From: Sulfurovum sp. | GTDB lineage: Bacteria; Campylobacterota; Campylobacteria; Campylobacterales; Sulfurovaceae | Assembly (NCBI GenBank): GCA_026989435.1 | Contig: JALSJI010000072.1 | Location: 1 to 52,115 of the forward strand | DNA length: 52,115 bases | Direction: 5' to 3' | In this document: positions 45,462-48,897 of the stretch, piece after piece | Layout of the letters: the number at the start of each line of letters is the position of its first letter | Position numbering within the stretch: the first letter of the stretch is position 1 | Translations under genes and position numbers: made by a program | Notes under the pieces: generated by a model | Database searches by the model: none | Seen by the model: the letters and a program-made list of their open reading frames with translations, nothing else | What the model was told of the DNA's origin: nothing

Positions 45462-45527
45462 ACTTAAACATTTTGCTGTATAATAATTCAAATTAATGTT
45501 CACTGTAACAAAATTAAAGGATTGACT

Positions 45528-45773
45528 ATGGGTATGCCAAGTATGCCAGAACTCTTGATTGTATTAGCAATAGTAGTGCTTCTTTTCGGGGCGAAAAAAA
45601 TTCCTGATTTAGCCAAAGGCATGGGTAAAGGTATTAAAGATTTTAAAAAAGCAATCAAAGAAGATGATGAAGAGCCTAAAGAGATTGCCAAAACGGAAGA
45701 TCAAAAGATTGAAACAACTATTGAAGAGGTACAATCAGGCAAGCAAGAGGAGAAAAAAAGCGAAAACGTTTAA
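45528..45773 (+). CDS. tatA: Sec-independent (Tat) translocase subunit TatA/E
   Basis: The ATG at 45528 has AAAGGA six bases upstream, giving 81 residues. One short membrane span ([20 protein letters not shown]) with the [20 protein letters not shown] hinge and amphipathic helix is diagnostic. A charged Glu/Lys tail follows. The gmk-tatA-argS order is conserved in Campylobacter and Helicobacter. Confidence 0.95.
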
Positions 45774-47539: not shown

Positions 47540-47578
47540 CAAGATGAGAAACAAGAGAGTAAAGAGTATATCGTGAAA

Positions 47579-47899
47579 ATGTTGATTATGTCGGCAACAC
47601 TGGCAACTATTGCTTTGATTTACTATCGCTATAGGCAAGAGAAAAACTTGAAAAAAATCTTGATTTCGCTTGGGACATTTGCAGTGATTGTCGCATTGGG
47701 CGTTGTAGGAAATATAACAAGGGCTATAGTACCGCTTTTTATAGCGCATGAAATATTGATCATAATAGCATGGGGTGCGTTGTTTTTTTATCTTTTTAAA
47801 AATCGCTACTGTATAGGGTGTTTTCTGGCACCTTTGGCAACCATAGTTCTGTTTTTTATTTTAGCATTTTTGGGCGGTTCAAGCGATTATGTCTTTTAA
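47579..47899 (+). CDS. small integral membrane protein of unknown function
   Basis: About 106 residues from the ATG at 47579 (a GTG two codons upstream is an alternative). Four hydrophobic segments are visible: the N terminus, ILISLGTFAVIVALGVVG, FIAHEILIIIAWGALFFYLF and LAPLATIVLFFILAFLG, with a lone pair of cysteines (CIGC) between the last two. The gene lies between argS and the convergent nadD-rsfS gene, whose end it overlaps by 4 bases. I recognise no family. Confidence 0.6.
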   Translation: MLIMSATLATIALIYYRYRQEKNLKKILISLGTFAVIVALGVVGNITRAIVPLFIAHEILIIIAWGALFFYLFKNRYCIGCFLAPLATIVLFFILAFLGGSSDYVF

Positions 47900-48810
47900 A
47901 TACGCTCTTTTTCTTTTTGTTGATTTTCAAGCAATTGGGTTAAAAATTGCTCCAATGAATAGCGCTGCCTATACTCCGGTATCATGATATGAATAAGGAT
48001 ATCCCCTAAATCAGCCACTATCCACTCATCGCTTATGTCGGCAGCCAAAATGGTATCTTCATGTGTTTTGAGAACTGTTTTTAGGTGCTCAAAAAGGGCT
48101 GTCGTATGTTTGCTGTTAAGTGCATTTGCAATGACAACCCGTTTCGCGATATATTCAGCCTTTTCAAGGTTAAACACTTCAATCTCTTCTGCTTTTTTTT
48201 CATCAAGTACGACTACGATGTTTTTGACTCTCTCTTCTATGTTCATTTGCTTTTTTCCTTTAAGTACGTCTTGTACGGATTTTTTTATTTTTTTGTCAAT
48301 ATAGTGGAGGGCACCCTGCTCTCTAATTTTGGTAGAGTTTGCATCACTTTGAAGTGTCAGTACTTTCCACTTTCTAAGGTGGTTTGTATACAGTTCATAG
48401 CCGTCGCGTGTGATAATGACCCAAGTCATATTGGCATTGAGCCACTCAAATTGATGCCATTGTGACAATCTCTCTAGGTTATCGGCTCCGATGATAAGAT
48501 ACTTGACACGGTACACCTTGCTGAAATATGTTACGGTGTCGAAAGTATACATGGGTTTACCTGCTTCAATCTCATAGGCTTCCACACTTACTTTGTCAAT
48601 CGAGTCAAAGAGTGTATGACACCACTTCAGACGTTGCGAAGGCAAAGCGTGGGCGGTATCTTTAAAGGGATTTAAATAGGCAGGGACTACAAGAAGCTTG
48701 TCTATCTCTAAATGTTCAATCGCAAGCCGGACAATTTTTTGGTGCCCTAAATGCGGAGGATCGAAACTACCCCCATAAAATGTGACGATAGGCTTGGACT
48801 CATTAACCAA
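47896..48810 (-). CDS. nadD: fused nicotinate-nucleotide adenylyltransferase - ribosomal silencing factor (NadD-RsfS)
   Basis: The frame is continuous for 304 residues. Residues ~1-188 are NadD, with TFYGGSFDPPHLGHQKIV (the HxGH nucleotidyltransferase site), IIGADNLERLSQWH and SDANSTKIREQ (the ISxxxxR motif). Residues 189-304, from NIEERVKNIVVVLDEKKAEE, form RsfS, ending with EWIVADLGDILIHIM and YRQRYSLEQFL. In Campylobacter these are neighbouring separate genes. An internal ATG (48246) begins the RsfS part and has AAAGGA nine bases upstream, so RsfS may also be made alone. Its promoter region is shared with gap. Confidence 0.9.
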   Translation of the reverse strand: MVNESKPIVTFYGGSFDPPHLGHQKIVRLAIEHLEIDKLLVVPAYLNPFKDTAHALPSQRLKWCHTLFDSIDKVSVEAYEIEAGKPMYTFDTVTYFSKVYRVKYLIIGADNLERLSQWHQFEWLNANMTWVIITRDGYELYTNHLRKWKVLTLQSDANSTKIREQGALHYIDKKIKKSVQDVLKGKKQMNIEERVKNIVVVLDEKKAEEIEVFNLEKAEYIAKRVVIANALNSKHTTALFEHLKTVLKTHEDTILAADISDEWIVADLGDILIHIMIPEYRQRYSLEQFLTQLLENQQKEKERI

Positions 48811-48829
48811 AAACTAACCTTATTTACTG

Positions 48830-48864
48830 TAATATTGCATAATTTTACCATAATATTACATAAT
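48830..48864. promoter_or_regulatory. phased 14-base direct repeat between nadD-rsfS and gap
   Basis: TAATATTGCATAAT (48830-48843) recurs as TAATATTACATAAT (48851-48864), 13 of 14 bases identical and 21 bases apart, two turns of the helix. The outer parts also form the inverted repeat GTAATATT...AATATTAC. It looks like a regulator binding site, or overlapping -10 regions of divergent promoters. Confidence 0.5.
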
Positions 48865-48897
48865 AAATTCTAAGAGCGAAGGGAATACGATATTCAC

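Follow-up and report, generated by a model that had tools for sequence, protein, structure and literature searches.

A nadD-rsfS fusion frame in Sulfurovum with a conserved putative internal rsfS start and recurrent changes between the fused and the split form

Introduction

Proteins of the RsfS family bind uL14 and block the joining of ribosomal subunits. In a draft genome of Sulfurovum sp. the gene for RsfS lies in one open frame with the gene for NadD, a protein of NAD synthesis, and a Shine-Dalgarno-like (SD-like) site with a start codon is found at the junction between them. The locus raises the question of what is made from such a frame, i.e., a joined protein, a free RsfS or both, and of whether the joining of the two domains matters to the cell. 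A preliminary description of this DNA proposed that the cell may make both products, linking ribosome dormancy to NAD supply.

Wolinella succinogenes belongs to the same phylum as Sulfurovum. It has a NadD-YbeB fusion protein, likewise with NadD followed by RsfS (YbeB) in one protein, which is given in a 2011 table entry as having no pyrophosphatase or NAD cleavage activity; the passages available from that source make no mention of an internal rsfS start, of free RsfS or of switching (PMC3223725). The fusion as such is already known from this case. A later Streptococcus paper names a NadD-YbeB two-domain protein in a general sentence, without detail in the excerpt available (PMC5462765), and the gene-neighbour and fusion passages of a further paper leave a NadD-RsfS fusion unmentioned (PMC3400551). 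Neither an internal start within a NadD-RsfS fusion nor switching between fused and split states was found described in the literature searched, which consisted mostly of non-subscription papers.

Materials and methods

Searches were made at the level of the genus (Sulfurovum, g1; 78 genomes searched, 74 with a match, all 74 classified from DNA), the family (175 genomes, 163 with a match, 119 classified, among the matches listed) and the order (398 genomes, 378 with a match). The order loci from outside the family, among the matches listed, comprised 80 whose match spanned both domains, two more of that kind and 20 with separate matches. A phylum search drew 121 genomes, all of which belonged to the same order. 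Counts were made on 224 loci (L001-L124 and L194-L293) minus five without an RsfS match (L094, L100, L110, L277 and L279), i.e., 219 loci. Named records L125-L193, many of them from the same genomes, were excluded from all counts, and one family locus (G176:C301) stands outside the classified set.

A two-domain gene tree was built from 170 + 105 columns filled in more than 80% of rows, linker columns possibly included, under LG+G4 with a quick search. Stop gains in the linker were counted by parsimony in the 146 in-frame loci. As a control for the junction, 20 random in-frame places were drawn from each fused frame.

Results

The window, i.e., the whole 52,115-nucleotide stretch analysed (contig JALSJI010000072.1, assembly GCA_026989435.1), carries the fused nadD-rsfS frame on the minus strand, which the preliminary description had left unstated. 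The frame, located from the open reading frame list and profile matches, runs over 304 codons at 47899..48810 from a TTG start, with its stop codon at 47896-47898. Its NadD part (48247..48810, minus strand, codons 1-188, TTG start at 48810) matches the NadD profile TIGR00482 at residues 11-164 with 128.1 bits (cut-off 112.45). The RsfS part (47899..48246, minus strand, 116 codons if the internal ATG is the start) matches TIGR00090 at residues 195-289 with 78.2 bits (cut-off 56.9), covering model positions 2-98 of 99, and the Pfam RsfS profile PF02410 with 72.1 bits (cut-off 21.6). Not one stop codon lies between the two domains in this frame, and the earlier claim of a single uninterrupted NadD and RsfS frame is upheld. 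The two expected products had been put at 34 and 13 kDa; the predicted masses come to 35.5 kDa for the fusion and 13.6 kDa for free RsfS.

The NadD nucleotide-binding motif GGSFDPPHxGH occupies residues 13-23 and is invariant, except at x, in 23 aligned rows. A second NadD motif, ISSTxIR, lies near the C end of NadD, and the corresponding residues 157-163 (48322-48342, minus strand) read ANSTKIR in the window: S159, I162 and R163 are kept, and residues 157 and 158 depart from the majority, unlike most of the 22 aligned relatives, which have two Ser ahead of S/T-x-I-R. To judge from the motif, this deviation may alter NadD activity in the window strain. In the predicted structure of the fusion (mean pLDDT 85.6, pTM 0.63) both domains are confident and the joint between them is weak (mean pLDDT 65 for residues 181-190), which is compatible with domains that are independent and connected by a short linker. 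In genus g32 (L062, L063, L067, L069, L070, L116 and L122) the NadD frame meets the RsfS start a few codons past AGC TCA ACA (S-S-T), and NadD there, fused and split alike, is apparently without the C-terminal helix present in window NadD.

Several features of the neighbourhood were noted by eye. The nadD-rsfS frame points away from a gap-like frame, and the spacer between nadD and that frame (48800-48897) holds TAATATTAC/GTAATATTG-like pieces. Of the 34 fused Sulfurovum loci, 23 have the identical block TACAGTAAATGAGGTTAG ahead of the nadD TTG, possibly a shared regulatory site. On the other side, a plus-strand frame of 108 residues (47573-47899), hydrophobic in appearance, converges on rsfS so that the stops share bases. 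Further off (45522-45773), a short TatA/E-type-like frame with a TTG start sits between gmk-like and argS-like frames.

The junction reads AAA GGA AAA AAG CAA, followed by ATG AAC. The AAAGGA at 48256..48261 (minus strand) has a predicted pairing of -5.6 kcal/mol as the SD-like site of the internal start, and 9 bases separate it from the ATG at 48244..48246 (minus strand), the putative start of free RsfS and residue 189 of the fusion. Programmed frameshifting at the A-AAA-AAG of the window was considered and set aside, the heptamer being absent from the other fused junctions inspected.

Across the 219 loci with both domains, 109 are fused, 37 have a stop separating domains that share a frame and 73 have the domains in different frames; outside Sulfurovum the sample leans towards fused loci because those spanning both domains were preferentially taken, and the fused share there is not an unbiased frequency. 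In Sulfurovum itself 34 of 74 genomes are fused, 7 are in frame with a stop and 33 are in another frame, which rules out that all close relatives are unfused. Fused loci occur in ten families (f1, f4, f6, f8, f9, f10, f13, f16, f19 and f20). In the order sample, among the matches listed, the fused state is found in 27 of the 39 f20 genomes with a match and in 15 of 16 in g10; being the commoner state there, the fusion may matter in these groups. The genes had been described as separate in Campylobacter, which agrees with Campylobacter sp. MIT 21-1684 (L160) and C. majalis (L182) but does not hold in general, since the locus of Campylobacter sp. isolate BH.8_9 (L152, a metagenome-assembled genome) is fused. 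Outside the order, the loci with the titles Opitutia and Puniceicoccales (L185 and L187) match both domains and are unfused. A tblastn search of a plasmid collection returned 34 records, none of which reached 80% query coverage among the matches listed.

The junction start is strongly conserved. A start codon stands there in all 109 fused loci (103 ATG, 6 TTG), with SD pairing of -4 kcal/mol or better in 106 and -3.2 in the other three (L019, L041 and L241), these being counts of related loci taken individually, so that only the tree counts below take shared descent into account. The AAAGGA and ATG which had been reported at the junction are present in the window, and an in-frame junction with an SD-like site and ATG is shared by 34 fused Sulfurovum genomes, more than chance would give. 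At the random in-frame places a start codon with SD pairing of -4 or better was met in 266 of 2180 cases (12.2%; 3.3% with ATG), and among 1181 other in-frame start codons 13.0% have SD pairing of this strength. SD strength alone cannot mark the junction, since 66 of the 109 fused loci have another in-frame start codon with equal or better pairing. The mean SD energy is -5.49 at fused junctions, -5.49 in in-frame split loci and -5.90 in off-frame loci, and the site is kept at base level irrespective of the nadD frame. The SD and start region (-15 to +3) has a predicted mean unpaired probability of 0.654 (n=109) vs 0.477 at random in-frame places (n=327).

ATG stands at the junction of every one of the 34 fused Sulfurovum loci, whereas at least 8 different codons are found directly ahead of it. 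Where the SD-like site contains a Gly codon, this is GGA or GGG in 32 of 32 of these loci, the remaining two having AGG; elsewhere in the 34 frames GGA and GGG make up 175 of 328 Gly codons. In family f8 a TTG start is found at the junction of fused L212 and L221 and of split L214, L220, L222, L229, L231, L238, L278 and L282; in f4 it is found in fused L215 and L216 and in split L194, L228, L280, L281 and L286, with GTG starting rsfS in split L195 and L276. The fused f8 and f4 loci retain TTG although any Leu codon would suffice for the fusion. The residues flanking the junction are also partly conserved (K/E-G-Q before, M-T-I after). For nadD itself the start is TTG in 34/34 fused Sulfurovum loci, with SD pairing of -4.0 in the window and -6.8 or better in the other 33. 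Given this weaker nadD site in the window, the internal ATG may outdo the nadD TTG as a start there. The internal rsfS start is very likely real.

Fused and split states interchange often. On the gene tree, which is not a species tree and whose quick-search support values can mislead, 34 changes of state are counted, falling to 20 when branches below 95 SH-aLRT are collapsed most favourably (34, 34, 30, 29 and 20 changes at collapse thresholds of 0, 50, 80, 90 and 95). A signal of kinship is also present, since shuffled state labels require 65-82 changes vs 34. Near pairs show how small the difference can be: L069 (TAT) and L070 (TAG) have junction windows that are 94% identical, and the corresponding values are 90% for L058 (TAC) and L059 (TAA), 87% for L011 (CAA, CAT) and L013 (TAA, TAA) and 86% for L039 (CAG) and L008 (TAA).

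Stop gains in linker codons -3 to -1 numbered 17 vs 21.5-24.4 expected, and in the 41 in-frame Sulfurovum loci 4 vs 5.5-6.0, all expected values being rough ones from simple parsimony and a rough substitution model. By this estimate linker stops appear nearly as often as chance predicts; since the gains fall slightly short of expectation, there is room for weak selection for an open linker. Since a locus is included only when both domains are open there, the flanking codons in Sulfurovum (-10 to -5, 0 gains vs about 8 expected; +7 to +20, 0 vs 5-6) provide a weak control. Over all families, codons -10 to -5 have 13 gains vs 42-50 expected, as nadD ends earlier in some. Neither the switching on the tree nor the linker stop gains (146 loci) gave evidence of selection keeping the fusion itself.

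Discussion

In the reading we favour, with a probability of about 0.7, rsfS has kept a protected start from which it is still translated, and the fusion arises by read-through as a nearly neutral product which the cell tolerates. From the open frame with its two domains, the kept SD-like site and start, the repeated switching and the near-chance linker stops, we infer that the cell makes both proteins, that silencing falls to the free RsfS and that the joined protein is tolerated as a by-product. The first of these points was already raised as a possibility in the preliminary description, and the shared frame together with the strongly conserved internal start leads us to expect it. The proposed link between dormancy and NAD supply, on the other hand, goes unsupported in view of the 20 to 34 switches and the near-chance linker stops.

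Under this proposal nadD and rsfS would form a compact neighbour pair in which the SD and start of rsfS lie inside or just behind the end of nadD. The rsfS SD and start codon would be under strong selection, and the position of the nadD stop would drift almost freely, i.e., before the rsfS start, overlapping it out of frame, or absent in a shared frame. With no stop, as in the window, ribosomes from the nadD TTG would give the 35.5-kDa NadD-RsfS fusion, and those entering at the internal ATG would give free 13.6-kDa RsfS. Where a stop separates the genes or their frames overlap, nadD termination close to the rsfS start may aid reinitiation, as in translationally coupled pairs (PMC12548453). 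In the parts of that source available, the downstream gene of an overlapping or abutting pair starts within the upstream gene or at its end, like rsfS in the off-frame loci here; the fused loci differ in that the nadD frame never ends before the end of rsfS. Reinitiation after termination could hardly supply RsfS in them, because the upstream frame runs to the rsfS end, and free RsfS would require new initiation within a translated frame. It could then bind uL14, as described for Staphylococcus aureus in the portion available of PMC7125091.

The fusion might conceivably bind as well, since in the mitochondrial relative, too, the RsfS part is preceded by further residues: in a solved chain of 228 residues the RsfS match lies at 91-189. 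Part of the preceding stretch may be the import signal. Genes with in-frame internal starts are also familiar from E. coli, i.e., infB (IF2) and cheA, where a single frame likewise encodes a long protein together with a shorter one made of its C-terminal part. The present case differs from these in that the short product amounts to an entire protein family, for which relatives have a separate gene.

That the fusion is instead a working two-function protein, placing NadD at the ribosome or letting NAD precursors tune RsfS activity, free RsfS being a second isoform, we consider unlikely. Its spread over ten families, its prevalence in f20 and g10, the good prediction of both domains and the slight shortage of linker stops all speak for such a role. 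Against it are the number of state switches, the near-chance rate of stop gains in the linker and the near-identical relatives that are split by a single codon. The Wolinella NadD-YbeB, without NAD cleavage or pyrophosphatase activity in the table entry, counts against it too, although this bears on those activities only (PMC3223725).

A related idea is that of a reversible fusion, in which the loss of one stop would create NadD-RsfS without the loss of free RsfS. As the rsfS start survives the joining of the frames, evolution could retest the joined protein repeatedly, and in family f20 and genus g10 this protein might have become permanent and brought NAD synthesis to the large ribosomal subunit. 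We regard this as something of a long shot.

Quite improbable is the reading in which the fusion is the sole product and the ATG and GGA-rich stretch are retained solely on account of the residues they encode. That the internal start is a prediction from sequence speaks for this reading, as do the partly conserved residues around it. However, the SD-like site is retained whatever the frame of nadD, the Gly codon is GGA or GGG in 32 of 32 cases, fused f8 and f4 loci retain TTG and an invariant Met stands beside variable residues, none of which sits well with selection on the protein only. Finally, an assembly or sequencing error that deleted a stop, for which one could cite the run of six A at the junction and the origin of the window as one contig of a 95-contig draft, is very remote indeed, given that the same in-frame junction with an SD-like site and ATG recurs in 34 fused Sulfurovum assemblies, of which G137 (L041) consists of a single contig, and that in the close relatives L002-L007 and L031, likewise fused, the codon spacing from SD to ATG is unchanged and different letters stand in place of the A run.

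Conclusions

Overall, the locus exemplifies, with good sampling, an arrangement of a known kind and is of modest interest. In this natural case the gene tree shows a domain fusion appearing and disappearing some 20-34 times with the downstream start retained, a caution that a fused frame alone is no proof of functional linkage. Annotation of just the product of about 300 residues would overlook the predicted free ribosome-silencing protein. Comparison of near-identical relatives set apart by a stop offers a direct test of what the fusion costs or brings.
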